DNA from: an uncultured Methylococcaceae bacterium
GTDB lineage: Bacteria > Pseudomonadota > Gammaproteobacteria > Methylococcales > Methylococcaceae
Direction of reading: 5' to 3'
DNA length: 64,000 nucleotides
NCBI GenBank assembly: GCA_903859815.1
Contig: CAIOOA010000185.1
Span: forward strand, 1-64,000
Positions 4,734 through 31,853 of this stretch are shown piece after piece. How positions within the stretch are numbered: the stretch's first letter is position 1; each line of letters begins with the position of its first letter. The position numbers and the translations under genes were made by a program. The notes under the pieces were generated by a model that saw only the letters and a program-made list of their open reading frames with translations, was not told the DNA's origin and made no database searches.

Positions 4734-7553
4734 ATGGACTACAAAGCCACGCTCAATCTTCCAACCACCGATTTCCCCATGAAAGGCAATTTGTCCCAGC
4801 GCGAGCCAGAACAGATCAAGGCTTGGAAGGAAAAAGCGCTGTACCGGAAAATTCGGGAGGCTTGCCAAGGCCGTCCGCGTTTCATACTGCATGATGGCCC
4901 CCCCTATGCCAATGGCGAAATTCATATCGGCCACGCGGTGAATAAAGTGCTTAAGGACATTATCGTCAAAAGCAAAGGACTTTCGGGTTTCGATGCGCCT
5001 TATGTGCCGGGTTGGGATTGCCACGGTTTGCCGATTGAGCTAATGGTGGAAAAAAAGATGGGGAAGGCGGGGGTGCAAGTCGATCCGACCGATTTCCGCC
5101 GTGCTTGCCGTCAATACGCCACCGAACAAGTGGATGTGCAACGTAACGAATTCATTCGCTTGGGTGTCTTTGGCGATTGGGAAAACCCATACCTGACCAT
5201 GAACTTCAAGTTTGAGGCCGATATTATCCGGGCCTTGGGTAAAATCTGCGCCAACGGTCATTTGACCAAAGGGGCCAAGCCCGTCCATTGGTGTACAGAT
5301 TGTGGCTCTGCCTTGGCCGAGGCCGAGGTGGAATATGAAAACAAACGCTCGCTGGCGATTGACGTGCGTTTTCGGGTCGTGAACGAAACAGAGGCATTAA
5401 AACGTTGCCATACGGCTGAAGGCTGTCTCGGTTCCGGTCCTTTATCCGTGGTGATTTGGACAACGACCCCTTGGACCTTGCCTGCCAACCAAGCCGTGGC
5501 CTTGAACCCAGAATTGGATTATGCCGTGGTGCAATTGGAAGAGGCGGGTGAACGGCTGATTCTTGCCGAAGCCTTGATGAAGGATACTTTGCTTCGGGTT
5601 GGCGCTGAAAATTACCGCGTGGTCGCCTATTGCAAAGGTTCGGCTTTGGAAGGCTTATGGCTGCGGCATCCCTTTTTGTCTCGCGAAGTGCCCATCATCT
5701 TGGGTGACCATGTCACCCTTGATGCCGGTACTGGCGCAGTCCACACCGCCCCCGGTCACGGCCAGGAAGACTATGTGGTTGGTTTGAAATATGATTTGAA
5801 GGTGGACAATCCAGTTGGTGATGATGGCGTGTTCCTGCCCGGCACCCAATACTTTGCCGGTCAGCATGTCATGACGGCCAACCCCCAAGTCGTGGAGGTG
5901 CTAAAAGACCATGGCACACTGCTGCATGTCACTAGCATTGAACATAGCTATCCGCATTGCTGGCGGCATAAAACCCCGGTGATTTTCCGTGCCACCCCGC
6001 AATGGTTCATCAGCATGGACAAAGCTGGCTTGCGGGCCAAAACTCTAGCTGAAATCAAACAAGTGCAATGGATTCCCGATTGGGGGCAAGCCCGCATCGA
6101 AGGCATGGTGGATAATCGCCCCGATTGGTGTGTATCCCGTCAACGCAACTGGGGTGTGCCGATTGCTTTGTTTGTCCACAAACAGACTGGCGAAATCCAT
6201 CCCGACACGTTGAATTTGATCGAACAAGTTGCCCTTCGCGTGGAACAACAAGGCATTGATGCTTGGTTTGGCCTAGACGCGAAGGAGTTGTTAGGTTCCG
6301 ATGCCGAGCATTACAGCAAGATGAGTGACACCTTGGATGTGTGGTTCGATTCCGGCGTGACTCATGCCTGCGTATTGAATCGGCGCGAGGATCAACAATT
6401 CCCCGCCGACCTGTATTTGGAAGGCTCTGACCAGCATCGTGGGTGGTTCCAGTCATCTCTGTTGTCTTCGGTCGCGATGAATGGGGTTGCACCCTATCGG
6501 CAAGTCTTGACCCATGGCTTCACCGTGGATGCCCAAGGCAAGAAAATGTCCAAGTCCAAGGGCAATGTCGTCGCACCACAGAAAGTGGTCAAGAATTTGG
6601 GCGCGGATGTGTTGCGCCTTTGGGTGGCTGCAACCGATTACCGGGCGGAAATGTCCGTTTCCGATGAAATCCTCAAGCGCACTTCCGATGTATACCGCCG
6701 CTTGCGCAACACGGCTCGTTATTTGTTGGCTAATCTTAACGGTTTCGATCCTACACAAGACATTGTTGCACCTGAGCGAATGTTGCCGCTAGACCGTTGG
6801 GCCGTGGATAAGGCTTGGCAGTTGCAACAAGAGGTTGTGAATGCTTACGAGACCTACCAATTCCATTTGGTCTACCAAAAAGTCCATCATTTCTGCTCGG
6901 TGGACTTGGGCAGCTTTTACTTGGATGTCACCAAGGATCGCCAATACACCTCCAAGGCCGATAGTTTGGCAAGACGTTCGGCGCAAACCGCCATGTACCA
7001 TATTGCCGAAGCCTTGGCGCGTTGGTTGGCTCCCATCTTGAGTTTCACCAGTGATGAAATCTGGCGCTTCCTGCCCGGTGAAAGGCCGGAGTCGGTGTTT
7101 TTGTCAACTTGGTATGAGTGCTTATATCCGCTAGACGAAAGCAGCACGATGAATCGCGAATTCTGGGATTTTGCCCTGCTGGTCCGCGAAGCGGTCAGCA
7201 AGGAATTGGAAGTGCTGCGCATCCGTAACGAAATCGGATCTTCGCTGGATGCAGAAGTTGAGCTGTATTGCTCGCCGTCGGTGTTGGCCCGCTTGTCGGC
7301 GTTGGAAGATGAGTTGCGCTTTGTCTTCATCACTTCCTATGCGACGGTGTTGCCCGAAGTTGCCGAACATGGCGATAAGCTCCCCACTGAAGTCGATGGC
7401 TTGGAATTGCGGCTACGGGCCAGCGACAAACCCAAGTGCGTCCGCTGTTGGCATCACCGGCACGATGTGGGCACTCACGCCGATCATCCAGAGCTATGTG
7501 GGCGCTGTGTCGAAAACGTTGATGGTCCCGGTGAGTCCCGGTCATACGCTTGA
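4734..7553 (+). CDS. ileS: Isoleucyl-tRNA synthetase
   Basis: This class I aminoacyl-tRNA synthetase has 939 residues and charges tRNA-Ile. The HIGH motif is in [16 protein letters not shown] and the KMSKS motif in [10 protein letters not shown]. The editing (CP1) domain lies between them, with [12 protein letters not shown] and [16 protein letters not shown]-terminal zinc-binding part has CVRCWHH and CGRCV. The start at 4734 matches the family N-terminus ([10 protein letters not shown]). The ribosome-binding site is weak, so translation may be coupled to ribF, whose stop lies 26 bases upstream. Confidence 0.98.
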
Positions 7554-7563
7554 GGATTGAACC

Positions 7564-8034
7564 ATGTTGAAATGGCTTTGGCTGACGGCGCTGGTCATTG
7601 TGTTGGATCAAGCCAGTAAGTTAATGGTCGACCATGCAATGGCTTTGTACGAAAGCGTTCCGTTGATCCCCTTTTTCCAATTGACCTATGTGCGTAACAC
7701 CGGCGCGGCCTTTAGCTTCTTGGCCCAAGCCGGAGGCTGGCAGCGCTGGTTTTTCATTGCGTTATCCCTGTCCGCCAGCATTGCCATTGCTTATTGGCTA
7801 AAAAACATGCCCAAAGACCGGCATTGGGAAGCCGCTGCTTGGGCCTTGGTGTTAGGCGGCGCTTTGGGCAATTTGATAGACCGCATCAGCTACGGCTATG
7901 TGATCGATTTTCTCGATGCTTATTATCAACAATGGCATTTCCCGGCATTCAACGTGGCCGATTCCGCCATCACCGTAGGTGTAATTATGTTGCTGCTGGA
8001 TGTGGTGTTGGCGTCCCGACGCACCCAACCGTAG
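7564..8034 (+). CDS. lspA: Lipoprotein signal peptidase (signal peptidase II)
   Basis: This inner-membrane aspartyl protease of 156 residues cleaves prolipoproteins before the lipidated cysteine. Four hydrophobic segments are visible. The conserved blocks VRNTGAAFSFL, GALGNLIDRI and FNVADSAI contain the two catalytic aspartates (NLIDR and NVADS). It lies 10 bases after ileS, closing the murJ-ribF-ileS-lspA cluster. Lgt, the preceding enzyme of lipoprotein maturation, is encoded at 45.9 kb. Confidence 0.97.
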   Translation: MLKWLWLTALVIVLDQASKLMVDHAMALYESVPLIPFFQLTYVRNTGAAFSFLAQAGGWQRWFFIALSLSASIAIAYWLKNMPKDRHWEAAAWALVLGGALGNLIDRISYGYVIDFLDAYYQQWHFPAFNVADSAITVGVIMLLLDVVLASRRTQP

Positions 8035-8063
8035 GGGAATTAGGTACGTTTAAAATTGATACA

Positions 8064-8119
8064 GGAGTGCAAGGCTTGCCTTGCGATGGCATGTTCAGGC
8101 AAGGCAAGCCTTGCACTCC
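8064..8119. repeat. Inverted pair of GCAAGGC-type palindromic repeats
   Basis: One element (GGAGTGCAAGGCTTGCCTTG) is followed after a 14-base spacer by its inverted copy ending GCACTCC. Each element is itself palindromic, and the pair could fold into one long hairpin. It lies between lspA and ampD, whose 3' ends converge, and so may act as a two-way terminator. Confidence 0.8.
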
Positions 8120-8157
8120 CCCGATTGTTTGTGTGTATCACTATCCCGCTCGCAAAT

Positions 8158-8712
8158 TCATTGGTCAAGCAGCTTAAACAAACGCTCCCAATGGAAAGAC
8201 GGGCCGGGGTCGGTCTTCCGCCCTGGGGCAATATCACTGTGTCCGGCGATGGTTTCACGTGATAATCTTGGGTAATGGGCCAGTAGTGCTAGGATCACAT
8301 TGGCCAAGCGCTGATATTGGGCATCGGTGTATTCCACAGCTTCAGTGCCTTCCAATTCAATGCCTATGGAAAAATCATTGCAAGCTTCGCGTCCGCAAAA
8401 ATTGGACACTCCCGCATGAAAAGCCCGTAAGTGAAATGGCACGTACTGGGTGACAGTGCCATTGCGGTGAATGAGTACATGGGCAGCCACCCGTAGATGG
8501 TGGATACCCTCGAAATAAGGATGAGTGTCTTGAGGTAGGGTATTGGTGAACAAGCGGTCAATCCAGCCACCCCCAAACTCTCCGGGCGGCAGACTGATAC
8601 AATGGACAACAATCAATGAAATATCGGCATCATCGGGTCTTTCGTTGCAATTGGGTGAGGGGATTATCCTCTCGGCATCTTCCAGCCACCCATTGGAAAT
8701 GTTTACAATCAT
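8158..8712 (-). CDS. ampD: 1,6-anhydro-N-acetylmuramyl-L-alanine amidase AmpD
   Basis: This cytoplasmic zinc amidase of 184 residues strips stem peptides from anhydromuropeptides during cell-wall recycling. Family motifs are VVHCISLPPGEFGG (first zinc histidine), HLRVAAHVLIHRNG, RAFHAGVS, NDFSIGIELEGT (catalytic glutamate region) and AGHSDIAPGRKTDPG (last ligands). There is no signal peptide, which separates it from periplasmic AmiD. AmpD loss often raises AmpC beta-lactamase in other bacteria. No ampE is adjacent. Confidence 0.95.
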   Translation of the reverse strand: MIVNISNGWLEDAERIIPSPNCNERPDDADISLIVVHCISLPPGEFGGGWIDRLFTNTLPQDTHPYFEGIHHLRVAAHVLIHRNGTVTQYVPFHLRAFHAGVSNFCGREACNDFSIGIELEGTEAVEYTDAQYQRLANVILALLAHYPRLSRETIAGHSDIAPGRKTDPGPSFHWERLFKLLDQ

Positions 8713-24603: not shown

Positions 24604-27600
24604 ATGCCAGCATACGCCGCCGACCCATTACACCTGAAGGTTTTCATCGGCTCACCCAGCGATGTCAACGACGAACGCCAAGAAGCGTGGAAAGTACTCA
24701 CCCTACTACCCTCCCGACCAGCTTTTCGAGGCAAGGTCTTCTTTGAGGCAGTGGCTTGGAACCTACCACTCGGTAAGATTCCATTGTTGGCGAACATACC
24801 CCCGCAAAGCTCAGTGAACTGGATTAAAGGCGAACCCGCCACCTGTGATGTTGCGATCATCATCCTATGGTCGAGGTTAGGCACAGCCGCGCAAGGGACT
24901 GACTATGCCAAACCCGATGGCGGTTTTTTTACCGGCACGGAATGGGAATTTGACAACGCCATGAAAGCCAGTGTCGCATCGGGCCGGCTTCGCCCCAAGG
25001 TATTGCTCTATCAGCGTAAAGACGAACTTCCCGACAAAATAAAGCTGGAAAATAAAACCTCGATACTCAAACACATTGAAGATTTGGAGCAGGTGGAAGT
25101 TTTCATACGGAATTGTCGTGAACGCGGCATTGCCATTAACGAATACCAAGGAGGGGCCAGTGAGTTTGCCAGCCTGTTTGAAATACAATTGGAAGAAATC
25201 GTTTGTAAACTGTTAGAAGAACATACCCCGGACAACGGCAAGGATTGGAACGAGGAACAATCCAACAGCATTGACCCAAATGCAATCGCAGAACCCTTCT
25301 GGACAGGCTCCCCCTTCCCCGGCTTACGCCCCTTCACCGTCAAAGACTCGCCCATTTTTTTCGGCAGGGGGCGGGAAACCGACGAACTGCTGTCCCGATT
25401 GCGCGACCCGGACCAACGGTTCATCGCCGTGGTGGGTGCATCCGGTTCCGGCAAATCATCCTTGGTGTGGGCCGGGTTGATCCCAAGATTGATGAATGGC
25501 GCATTGGAAGGCAGCGAGGATTGGGCATGGGTGCGCTTCACGCCGGGGCAGTTGGGGGACAACCCATTCATCGCCCTCGCCAACGGTTGGAAAGACACTT
25601 TGGAAGCAACCGGAAAATCCATACGTGAATGTGCCGACACGCTGCAACAAAACCCGGAACAATTGGATGGGTGGTTGCAAATGGCCTTGGCAAACCGCCC
25701 CGCCGCCGCCCAACTGCTACTGTTCATCGACCAGTTTGAGGAACTGTTCACCATCGTCAAAAACCCTGATGCACGCACCGCGTTTGTCCGATTTCTGCTG
25801 GCGGCATCAAACTCAACACGGCTAAGAGTCGTCATCAGTGTGCGGGCTGATTTCTATGCGCAATGCGTGGAGCAAGGCTTGGCGGAGGTCTTGAAAATTG
25901 GCTCGTATCCGTTGGCTGCACCCGGTTCGTATGCCTTGTCGCAGATGATCGCCAAACCCGCCGCCTTGGGTGGCTTGGAGTTTGAAGCCGGTTTGGTGGA
26001 TGCCCTCCTTGAAGACACCGGCAACGAACCTGGCGCATTGCCGCTGCTGGCTTTCGCGCTGGAACGGATGTACCAAGGTCGCACGGAGCAAGGCTTGCTG
26101 ACTTTTGAAGCCTATAATGGCTTCGGCAGGGTACAAGGGTCCATCGGTCAACAGGCCGATGCTATTTTTTCCAAGCTGCCTGACGACGTGCAAGCCACAT
26201 TCACGCATGTCTTCCGCGAATTGGTCGAAGTGGACGAGCGCGGCGTACCGGCACGTCGAAGGGCCAAGCTTGGGGACACGACAAATTTCACAACTCAAAG
26301 CAGCTTGAAAAGCGACGACGATAGAATGAACCGTCATACCGGGAGGGAGCGTCGGTATCAAGATTGCATGGACGCATCAAAAGCTAACCAACCCTGGAGC
26401 CTAGGTTCCGGCAATCCCTGCCGTAACGACGAAATAAACCCAAATCCATCATCGTCGGCCCTTAACGACGCGCTCATCAATGCCCGGCTACTGGTCGCCG
26501 ACGGCGAAGGCGAGGAAGTCACCCTCGAAGTGGCCCATGAAGCCCTGTTCCGCAGTTGGGGCAAGCTGGCCGAATGGGTGACGCAGACCGCCGACGACCA
26601 CAGGCTGAGGCGGCAAATCAGGCAACTGGCCGACTATTGGGACAAGAACCAACGCAAGGACGAACATCGCTGGCCCGACGAGCGGGTGAAGGAAGTGGCG
26701 CAAATGCTGGAACACCTTGGCATGACACTGGAAGACTTTCCCGAATCGGAACAGGCGTTTTTGGGCCCTATCAACCCAGTTGACATGCTCAAAGCCATCG
26801 AGCAGCCCAAAACCCCCCACGAGCGACGGGTGATGATCGGGGTGCGCTTGGATCGCCTCGGCGATACCCGCAAAGGCGTGGGCCTGCGTGAAGACGGCCT
26901 GCCGGATATCGACTGGGTTCACGTACCCGGCGGCGAGGTGACGATTGAAATCCGCACCGAATCCAACGATCCGGATTCGGCGGTGGCTAAAACCGTGACT
27001 CGCACCGTGGAAACCTGTTGGCTGTCTCGCTATCCGGTCACAGTTGCCCAATTCCAAGCCTTCTTGCGTGAATGCCATGACGGGCAGCGTTGGCAATTGC
27101 CTCAAGGCGCACCGATCAATTTGCCAGACTCCTACTCTCTGCCTAAACCATGGGCAGCAAGGCTTGGCAACCATCCCATGGATTCGGTCAACTGGTACGA
27201 TGCAGTGGCCTACTGCCATTGGCTCAGTGTCAGTCTGGGTTACGAGGTCAGGCTGCCCACCGAATTTGAATGGCAGTGCGCTGCCATAGGGGGAAATGAC
27301 CATCATTCCGGCATGGATCGCCGGACAAATCCGTCAAACCAACACTACCCATGGGGAGAAGATTGGAACCCTGCTCAAGAACCTTGGCGAGCCAATACCT
27401 ACGAAAGTGATTTGAGCCGTTCCACTGCCGTCGGGATGTATCCTGGTGGAGTTTCAGAATCCGGTTTATATGACCTGTGCGGCACGGTGTGGGAGTGGTG
27501 CCTCAATGCCTTCGACAACCCGGACAATGTGAGTATGGATACAAACCCTAAAATCACCCGAGCGATGCGAGGCGGATCTTTCAATAATCCTAGGCGTAAC

Positions 27601-27693
27601 TGCCGAGCCTCCTTCCGCAACGACTTCCACGCAGTTAACCGTAGTTATAGCGGCGGTTTTCGCTTGTTGTGTCTATCCCCTATCATTGAATAG
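24604..27693 (+). CDS. DUF4062-like / nSTAND NTPase / FGE-sulfatase-domain protein
   Basis: The protein has 1029 residues. Residues ~8-190 begin KVFIGSPSDVNDER, the start of DUF4062/TIR-like sensor or effector domains. From ~237, FPGLRPF and FFGRGRETDELL introduce an nSTAND NTPase with Walker A GASGSGKSSLVWAGL (~278) and Walker B LLLFIDQFEELFT. A helical region follows. From ~769, IDWVHVPGGEVTIEI starts a formylglycine-generating-enzyme (C-type-lectin-like) domain running to the end, with YPWGEDW, GLYDLCGTVWEWC and MRGGSFNNPRRNCRASFRND. Start: ATG 24604 with AAGGAA. Two REP-like repeats are embedded in frame (26391-26432, 27301-27324). STAND proteins of this build are linked to conflict or signalling systems; a role in defence is inferred. 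Confidence 0.85.
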   Translation: MPAYAADPLHLKVFIGSPSDVNDERQEAWKVLTLLPSRPAFRGKVFFEAVAWNLPLGKIPLLANIPPQSSVNWIKGEPATCDVAIIILWSRLGTAAQGTDYAKPDGGFFTGTEWEFDNAMKASVASGRLRPKVLLYQRKDELPDKIKLENKTSILKHIEDLEQVEVFIRNCRERGIAINEYQGGASEFASLFEIQLEEIVCKLLEEHTPDNGKDWNEEQSNSIDPNAIAEPFWTGSPFPGLRPFTVKDSPIFFGRGRETDELLSRLRDPDQRFIAVVGASGSGKSSLVWAGLIPRLMNGALEGSEDWAWVRFTPGQLGDNPFIALANGWKDTLEATGKSIRECADTLQQNPEQLDGWLQMALANRPAAAQLLLFIDQFEELFTIVKNPDARTAFVRFLLAASNSTRLRVVISVRADFYAQCVEQGLAEVLKIGSYPLAAPGSYALSQMIAKPAALGGLEFEAGLVDALLEDTGNEPGALPLLAFALERMYQGRTEQGLLTFEAYNGFGRVQGSIGQQADAIFSKLPDDVQATFTHVFRELVEVDERGVPARRRAKLGDTTNFTTQSSLKSDDDRMNRHTGRERRYQDCMDASKANQPWSLGSGNPCRNDEINPNPSSSALNDALINARLLVADGEGEEVTLEVAHEALFRSWGKLAEWVTQTADDHRLRRQIRQLADYWDKNQRKDEHRWPDERVKEVAQMLEHLGMTLEDFPESEQAFLGPINPVDMLKAIEQPKTPHERRVMIGVRLDRLGDTRKGVGLREDGLPDIDWVHVPGGEVTIEIRTESNDPDSAVAKTVTRTVETCWLSRYPVTVAQFQAFLRECHDGQRWQLPQGAPINLPDSYSLPKPWAARLGNHPMDSVNWYDAVAYCHWLSVSLGYEVRLPTEFEWQCAAIGGNDHHSGMDRRTNPSNQHYPWGEDWNPAQEPWRANTYESDLSRSTAVGMYPGGVSESGLYDLCGTVWEWCLNAFDNPDNVSMDTNPKITRAMRGGSFNNPRRNCRASFRNDFHAVNRSYSGGFRLLCLSPIIE
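27570..27672 (+). other. Candidate diversity-generating-retroelement variable region
   Basis: This is the last ~35 codons of the nSTAND-FGE gene. FGE domains normally carry Asn-rich motifs here. In this copy TTC (27580, 27613, 27625), GAC (27622), AGT (27643), TAT (27646) and AGC (27649) stand where AAC or AAT is usual. All differ from AAY only at the two adenine positions, which is the signature of adenine-directed mutagenic retrohoming. No reverse transcriptase or template repeat was found in this window, so any retroelement would have to act in trans or be elsewhere. Confidence 0.4.
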
Positions 27694-27699
27694 CTGTCC

Positions 27700-27737
27700 A
27701 TTGTGAGTGCCGCGCCAGCGGCACTCACAATTTTTTT
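27700..27737 (+). terminator. Strong intrinsic terminator after the nSTAND gene
   Basis: A perfect stem of about 14 base pairs (ATTGTGAGTGCCGC with GCGGCACTCACAAT) and a 4-base loop is followed by seven T. It starts 7 bases after the stop codon. A hairpin just past a variable region is also a feature of some diversity-generating retroelements, so it could have a second role. Confidence 0.9.
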
Positions 27738-31290: not shown

Positions 31291-31539
31291 ATGCGAACAA
31301 CAATCCGCAAAATGGGTAATTCCCAAGGTGTGCTTATTCCCAAGGCACTGCTTGCTCAAACTGGCATCGAACAAGCCGCAGACATATCCGTTGAAAATGG
31401 GGCTATCGTATTGCGTAAACCTAGGCAAAACGGCCGCCAAGGTTGGGCCGATGCCAGCAAAGAAATTGCCTTGTTGGGTGACGATGCCTTGGCTTGGCCT
31501 GATTTCGCCAATGAGAGCGATGAAGAATGGCAATGGTGA
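31291..31539 (+). CDS. mazE: MazE-like antitoxin (AbrB/SpoVT fold)
   Basis: The protein has 82 residues. The N-terminal swapped-hairpin DNA-binding domain is clear (TTIRKMGNSQGVLIPKALLA, then DISVENGAIVLRKP). The acidic C-terminus (WPDFANESDEEWQW) is the kind of tail that wraps MazF and blocks its RNA-binding site. It overlaps the toxin gene by 13 bases. Confidence 0.92.
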   Translation: MRTTIRKMGNSQGVLIPKALLAQTGIEQAADISVENGAIVLRKPRQNGRQGWADASKEIALLGDDALAWPDFANESDEEWQW

Positions 31540-31853
31540 AACGGGGCGAGGTCTGGCTTACCTGCCTTGACCCAACAGTGGGGAGCGAAATCCAAAAAAC
31601 ACGGCCTTGCGTTGTGATTTCACCGCCAGAACTGCACGATTATCTGCGGACTGTCATCGTCGCGCCGATGACGACAGGGAGCAAAGCAGCCCCTTTCAGA
31701 GTACCTGCGGACTTTGAGGGGAAGTTAGGTTTGATCTTACTGGATCAAATAAGAACACTCGACAAAACGCGCCTTATCCGCAGGCTTGGAATGGTCGATG
31801 TAAAAACCTTAACCGAGACACTCGTGGTGTTGCAAGAGTTGTTTGCGCCATAG
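31527..31853 (+). CDS. mazF: MazF/PemK-like endoribonuclease toxin
   Basis: The protein has 108 residues and is a full-length MazF-fold toxin: VKRGEVWLTCLDPTVGSEIQ, KTRPCVVISPP, VIVAPMTTG and LILLDQIRTLDKTRLI contain the conserved arginine and threonine positions used for RNA cleavage. MazF toxins cut single-stranded mRNA at short sequences and stop growth when the antitoxin decays. The gene looks intact. ATG codons at 31527 and 31533 are both possible starts. Confidence 0.93.
   Translation: MAMVKRGEVWLTCLDPTVGSEIQKTRPCVVISPPELHDYLRTVIVAPMTTGSKAAPFRVPADFEGKLGLILLDQIRTLDKTRLIRRLGMVDVKTLTETLVVLQELFAP

Follow-up and report, generated by a model that had tools for sequence, protein, structure and literature searches.

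A probable former target of a diversity-generating retroelement at the C-terminus of an nSTAND1/FGE protein in Methylococcaceae

Introduction

Diversity-generating retroelements (DGRs) are mostly known from live targets. The DNA analysed here, hereafter the window, is a stretch of 64,000 nucleotides on contig C185 of an uncultured Methylococcaceae genome (G000; Table 1). It contains a gene whose last codons had been interpreted, in a sequence-only reading, as a variable region left by adenine-specific mutagenic retrohoming. Is the end of this gene a DGR target, and, if so, is it still being rewritten? G000 is a fragmented MAG (5.8 Mb in 315 contigs, 99.06% complete), and we compared it with a genome set holding one genome per species; the comparisons below are between species.

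Results

Domain architecture and setting of the gene

The family assignment made earlier, an nSTAND protein with a C-terminal FGE domain, was borne out by Pfam profile searches of the window protein, which gave strong matches to nSTAND1 (PF20703; E 3e-104, 350 bits) and to a C-terminal FGE-sulfatase domain (PF03781; E 8e-39, 134 bits). The nSTAND NTPase is flanked by an N-terminal domain on one side and by a sensor-type domain at the C-terminus, which is the layout of STAND conflict receptors; PADLOC returned only weak matches to the protein (E 4e-4 and worse). Homologues at E <= 1e-60 occur in 9 of 151 genomes, counting G000 itself. Named relatives (six loci) come from uncultured Methylococcaceae MAGs and Candidatus Methylumidiphilus alinenensis and, more distantly, from a Competibacteraceae MAG. 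The linker between NTPase and FGE domain carries a copy of a dispersed repeat of ~100 bp, for which we found 14 further sites in G000 (E <= 0.001), some of them partial. The genes around are those we take to be cysE, trmJ, suhB and two-component genes, and two small overlapping ORFs at 31291-31853 resemble what is presumably a toxin-antitoxin pair of the MazE/MazF type.

Table 1. Features of the gene and its 3' flank, in window coordinates
Feature	Position	Strand	Remarks
DUF4062-like / nSTAND1 / FGE protein	24604..27693	+	single ORF, 1029 aa from ATG at 24604
N-terminal DUF4062-like domain, probably TIR-like effector	24604..25308	+	AlphaFold2 pLDDT 76.7; GTEWE motif
nSTAND1 NTPase domain	25312..26280	+	residues 237-559
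Dispersed-repeat copy, ~100 bp, in frame within linker	26331..26432	+	
FGE-sulfatase (C-type-lectin-like) domain	26911..27666	+	residues 770-1021
Segment equivalent to DGR variable region (GGSF...GFR)	27571..27663	+	diversification signs: none
Site corresponding to class-C 3' motif GGYTTYCGTTGCGCCCGA	27655..27672	+	motif absent
Terminator-like hairpin and T-tract	27700..27731	+	kept in G002 orthologue

The N-terminal domain matches DUF4062 with 18.6 bits, below the Pfam cut-off of 24.7, and we therefore call it DUF4062-like only. Both Glu residues of its GTEWE motif are invariant across eight aligned N-terminal sequences. For the AlphaFold2 model built from eight sequences, the top row of the VIA-align comparison was the TIR domain 3ozi_A (Z 9.0, rmsd 3.7, 135 aligned), followed by further TIR rows, with homoserine dehydrogenase and other Rossmann-type rows close (8.1-8.9). 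A plain Foldseek search with this domain was uninformative, none of the first 50 rows being a TIR domain. The model suggests that the domain is probably TIR-like, a fold that is likely rather than proven since Rossmann-type proteins score close behind the TIR domain. DUF4062 domains are presented as TIR-like NADases in antiphage defence in a 2026 preprint (PMC13174449). Going by the parts of that preprint available to us, the window protein shares with these NADases, and with Swarozyc, the DUF4062-like domain, the conserved Glu in GTEWE and probably the TIR-like fold; it differs in that its DUF4062 match falls under the Pfam cut-off, nSTAND1 and FGE accompany the domain, and its NADase activity is putative. 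The gene is best read as encoding a conflict receptor of the STAND type, probably antiphage, in which a TIR-like effector of the DUF4062-like kind would be coupled through an nSTAND1 NTPase switch to an FGE/C-type-lectin sensor; its antiphage role would be that of an NADase.

The flagged codons

The case for diversification had been built on seven codons near the end of the gene (27580, 27613, 27622, 27625, 27643, 27646 and 27649), said to occupy Asn positions and to be reachable from AAC or AAT with the third base kept. All seven are present as described. We compared them with 14 template-like blocks of the genus, defined as having the 24-codon spacing with 9 or more Asn in it, some of which are near-copies from sister genomes (the 22-codon block of L089 and the L176 block stand outside this count, and L088, L095, L098 and L102 are among the RT loci with no such block in the stretch examined). 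Four of the codons do correspond to template asparagines: 27625, 27643, 27646 and 27649 are AAC or AAT in 14, 14, 13 and 14 of the 14 blocks. The correspondence is looser at 27613 (AAC in 10/14) and slight at 27622, where AAC occurs in just 2/14 and AGG in 12/14. The TTC at 27580 is not at an Asn position at all, its counterpart being TGG in all 14 blocks and in 84/88 aligned template/variable blocks.

Reachability from AAC or AAT does not serve as a mark of DGRs either, being a property of any codon that ends in C or T, and thus of 53.5% of the gene's codons. The variable core does hold many such codons (23 of its 26, with a maximum of 19 in any other 26-codon stretch of the gene); its amino acids alone would predict 20.0 of 26 (P = 0.08). 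Taken alone, the codon pattern is a weak sign of DGR activity.

DGRs in the genome and the genus

A profile search of G000 for RVT_1 gave two matches at E <= 1, on contigs C30 and C274, in agreement with the earlier statement that the window itself, on C185, holds no reverse transcriptase (RT). The match on C30 (L014, 841-2487) is a group II intron RT/maturase with RVT_N and GIIM domains and an HNH match just below cut-off. C274 carries a complete DGR (L016, 5163-9945), composed of an nSTAND/FGE target, an Avd gene (NF033474, 97.7 bits against an NCBIfam cut-off of 80), an RT and a template; the end of the RT region and the template overlap. This RT contains IGNLTSQ and YVDD, motifs that we take to be significant, and its top sequence match in PDB is 8ub7, 'Reverse transcriptase' (1.9e-49), presumably a DGR RT; an RT 95% identical to it, with template, is found in G001 (L087). 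The C274 target (5163-8294, 1043 aa) is built like the window protein: the N-terminal domains are similar (30% identity), and an nSTAND-type middle and an FGE end follow. Avd, RT and template adjoin this target, which differs from the template at 14/30 adenine and 0/63 non-adenine sites, whereas the window gene has none of these.

A second template lies on C157 (L047, 7716-11710), where RT and Avd are reduced to a deletion remnant, a 94-residue ORF in which the start of the RT (62 residues, 95% identical to that of G002) runs on into the last part of an Avd-like ORF (32 residues, 100%). Its targets on C157, C153 and C251 show mismatches at 21/28, 19/28 and 14/28 adenine sites and at 1/65, 0/65 and 4/65 others; a gene on C154 is more distant (14/28 adenine and 13/65 other mismatches). 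Variable regions match this template despite the RT/Avd remnant, so the loss may be recent, or the C274 RT may serve the template in trans.

There are 36 FGE matches in G000, 35 of them above cut-off, and the two templates account for 2. Variable regions of a further class, C, occur on C116 (L032) and C120 (L033). Template C was not found in G000, although the C116 region matches the template C of G002 at 66/66 non-adenine sites, and thus templates can be missing from this MAG; the two C120 regions miss 7/66 and 11/66. Among the seven genus genomes searched (G000-G006), six have template-like blocks rich in Asn at RT loci of the DGR type, and G006 alone has six such loci. The proposed link of the family to DGRs therefore stands insofar as DGRs of the genome and genus act on the FGE tails of nSTAND and NACHT-type proteins.

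Search for a template of the window region

A region of this kind could still be active, rewritten in trans by a template and RT missed in the assembly, with G000 and G002 alike here since diversification is rare. Such an arrangement would have precedents, as remote targets exist in the genus, C116 fits a template C that G000 lacks, and an RT and Avd are at hand on C274. The search that the earlier reading had proposed, for a near-copy template beside a DGR RT, succeeded in its second half only: the RT is the one on C274, and a template for 27571-27663 was not found. With BLAST, this segment matched only itself in G000 (the next match had E 1.08), and across the seven genus genomes (E <= 1) it matched the G002 orthologue and pieces of ~15-46 bases, several of them from FGE cores or hairpins, with no template. 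A pattern requiring the same base or A at each site, with 3 mismatches allowed, also retrieved only the segment itself from the seven genomes. Against the 14 template-like blocks, the region shows 26-32 mismatches at 63-68 non-adenine sites.

We could reject several candidates individually. G000's own templates 1 and 2 mismatch the region at 30/63 and 32/65 non-adenine sites. Template C of G002 is out as a present template, with mismatches at 26/66 non-adenine and 12/27 adenine sites and no adenine excess (Fisher P = 0.54; P 9e-3 to 1e-8 in the five relatives tested). An origin from 'class V', with the tail GFRLVCVAPIL, has relatives in the genus and is left standing as a possibility; the window mismatches the constant codons of this class, and the class template was not seen in the genus. 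The missing template may be an assembly gap, given that the MAG is fragmented and lacks template C though C116 and C120 carry class-C regions. The non-adenine changes that the region has accumulated speak against continued activity, for rewriting would erase them.

Relatives with class-C variable regions

We built a tree of 12 rows from the homologues with the variable region excluded and a midpoint root, leaving out L065 and L071, which have no long enough ORF with an FGE tail. The window gene groups with L060 of G002 (100/100), and this pair is joined by L061 of G001 (99/99). The other members of the clade are L062, L063, L064, L068 and L074; L074 is long-branched and may be wrongly placed. 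All six rows other than the window and L060 carry class-C DGR variable regions, matching the class-C template at 82-92 of 95-96 non-adenine sites and keeping 10-19 of 30-31 adenines. L063 of G006 fits the template of its own genome, on a different contig, with mismatches at 0/66 non-adenine and 16/27 adenine sites, which by sequence makes it a remote DGR target; it is the only member of the clade shown to match a template of its own genome at every non-adenine site. The other five match their nearest class-C template at 82-86 of 95-96 such sites. Within G002, the paralogue L068 misses 7/66 non-adenine sites of template C and the window orthologue L060 misses 25/66; L068 and rows like it may use other class-C templates, or may be slowing down too.

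In the FGE core, five of the six class-C rows are nearest to the window protein (58-61% identity), and L116 of Competibacteraceae comes next (44%); the sixth row, L074, has 40%. L060 has the same flanks as the window gene on both sides; the G001 locus (L061/L114) has three upstream neighbours in common with it but not the downstream two-component genes.

These relationships bear on a further explanation, that DGRs never acted on the window gene in its own lineage, either because an ordinary FGE tail replaced its last ~45 codons by recombination or because the relatives gained class-C tails independently. In its favor, the FGE core is 65% identical to that of L061 but the last 44 codons (41 aligned) only 37%, and neither the terminator nor the tail RLLCLSPI resembles class C. 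The presence of class-C regions in six other rows of the clade makes independent gain unparsimonious. Searches of the genus turned up no donor DNA apart from the L060 orthologue, and the window region lines up with the templates in its 24-codon spacing, in the motifs RNCR and NR and at four template-Asn positions. We consider it unlikely that the window lineage escaped DGRs altogether.

Comparison of orthologues with a live target

The window protein and L060 are 93% identical and syntenic, and L060 is the one close orthologue available for comparison. All seven flagged residues are the same in both, the only change there being a silent TTC/TTT at 27613. The two genes differ at 1/31 template-adenine and 11/95 other sites. 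In a control pair, the C274 target of G000 and its counterpart in G001, the pattern is the opposite, with differences at 19/31 template-adenine and 5/95 other sites. Between window and L060, dN/dS is 0.23 for the gene as a whole; the 26 codons of the variable core taken separately give 0.32. For the control pair, dN is 0.251 and dS 0.067 in the variable region (40 codons), against 0.087 and 0.560 upstream, where only 121 codons were compared; as the divergence of this pair exceeds that of the test pair, rates are comparable only within each pair. In the last 44 codons of window and L060, all four amino-acid differences (27592, 27595, 27610 and 27631) lie in the variable core, along with three silent changes, and only 27595 is at a template-adenine codon.

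Hence the comparison with a relative that had been suggested as a check gave ordinary substitutions outside the flagged codons and no focus on adenines. Adenine-directed diversification of this copy, the central claim of the sequence-only reading, fails on this pair as on the absent cognate template. Such a pattern is opposite to that of a target being rewritten, and we regard continued activity of the region as very improbable.

The 3' end of the region

Homing of the Bordetella phage DGR requires an IMH at the 3' end, a downstream hairpin and homology between template and variable region, according to the passages we draw on (PMC3240598). Within class C, the 3' motif GGYTTYCGTTGCGCCCGA is intact in 26/27 regions and absent from the window and L060, which again argues against an active region; it would act as the IMH equivalent. 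The window tail GFRLLCLSPI is closer to that of another DGR class (GFRLVCVAPI) than to class C (GFRCARVQS), so that the class of its last template is uncertain. Exchange, rather than drift, may account for the 3' end.

The hairpin noted earlier just past the stop is real. It has a 14-pair stem, the loop GCCA and a T-tract, and the L060 copy shows changes in both loop and stem. Hairpins at phage DGR targets are described, in the sources as far as available, as having a GRNA loop and a stem of 7-10 bp. Given the longer stem, the T-tract and the different loop, the hairpin looks like an intrinsic terminator.

Discussion

The region at the end of the window gene is best explained as a former DGR target whose rewriting ended before the split of G000 and G002 and which has been under purifying selection since, a reading to which we give a probability of roughly 0.8. 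The diversification itself would belong to the ancestry of the window lineage. In related species of this Methylococcaceae genus, of the Methylumidiphilus type, the last ~31 codons of the homologues form a variable region overwritten from a DGR template of class C, which in at least one of them (G006) lies at a remote locus. In the lineage of G000 and G002, the region would have lost both its match to the template and the class-C 3' motif; retrohoming would then have ended, and the sequence written last would have stayed on as an unchanging tip of the sensor. The stop would presumably be due to the loss of that motif, although motif loss, template divergence and exchange of the 3' end may have come in any order. 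Thus, among the options raised before, a system acting in trans, a distant one or a lost one, it is the last that survives; the observation was partly confirmed and its interpretation partly supported. More tentatively, the receptor could have been 'retired into the germline', one written variant having been fixed through loss of the homing signal and preserved by selection while homologues, and other receptors in the same genome, still diversify.

The kind of system is already known. FGE domains accompany DGRs in conflict systems (PMC7159879), and in Thiohalocapsa PB-PSB1 nSTAND1/FGE sensors are reported to be diversified by DGRs, with targets at remote sites and one target that no longer diversifies (PMC10907252). 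In the portions of that paper considered here, PB-PSB1 and the DGRs of clade 5D resemble our case in combining nSTAND1 with a C-terminal FGE/CLec domain and in having several DGRs per genome, remote targets and disrupted loci. No diversification was observed in the target of PB-PSB1 DGR 1, as in the window region. That target still fits a template at all non-adenine sites (PMC10907252), whereas the window region fits none of the templates compared, and our comparison runs between species rather than within a population. A global survey of DGRs scores some as inactive and, going by the sections available, would miss remote targets (PMC8144416). None of the papers listed by a text search names both Methylumidiphilus and diversity-generating retroelement. 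To judge by titles and the beginnings of abstracts, papers joining DGR and 'methanotroph' include none on these bacteria, and those on inactive or orphan DGR regions include none addressing the point. The detail that we did not meet in the passages of the cited papers is a copy kept frozen by purifying selection alongside homologues of class C.

The RT-locus template-like blocks in six of the seven genomes point to a methanotroph genus rich in DGRs. For the recognition of such elements, the lesson of this locus is that codons merely reachable from AAC or AAT are weak evidence of DGR activity. For their biology, a frozen target and diversifying homologues within one small genus raise the question of when evolution halts random rewriting and keeps one binding tip, a parallel to the fixing of an antibody specificity in the germline.
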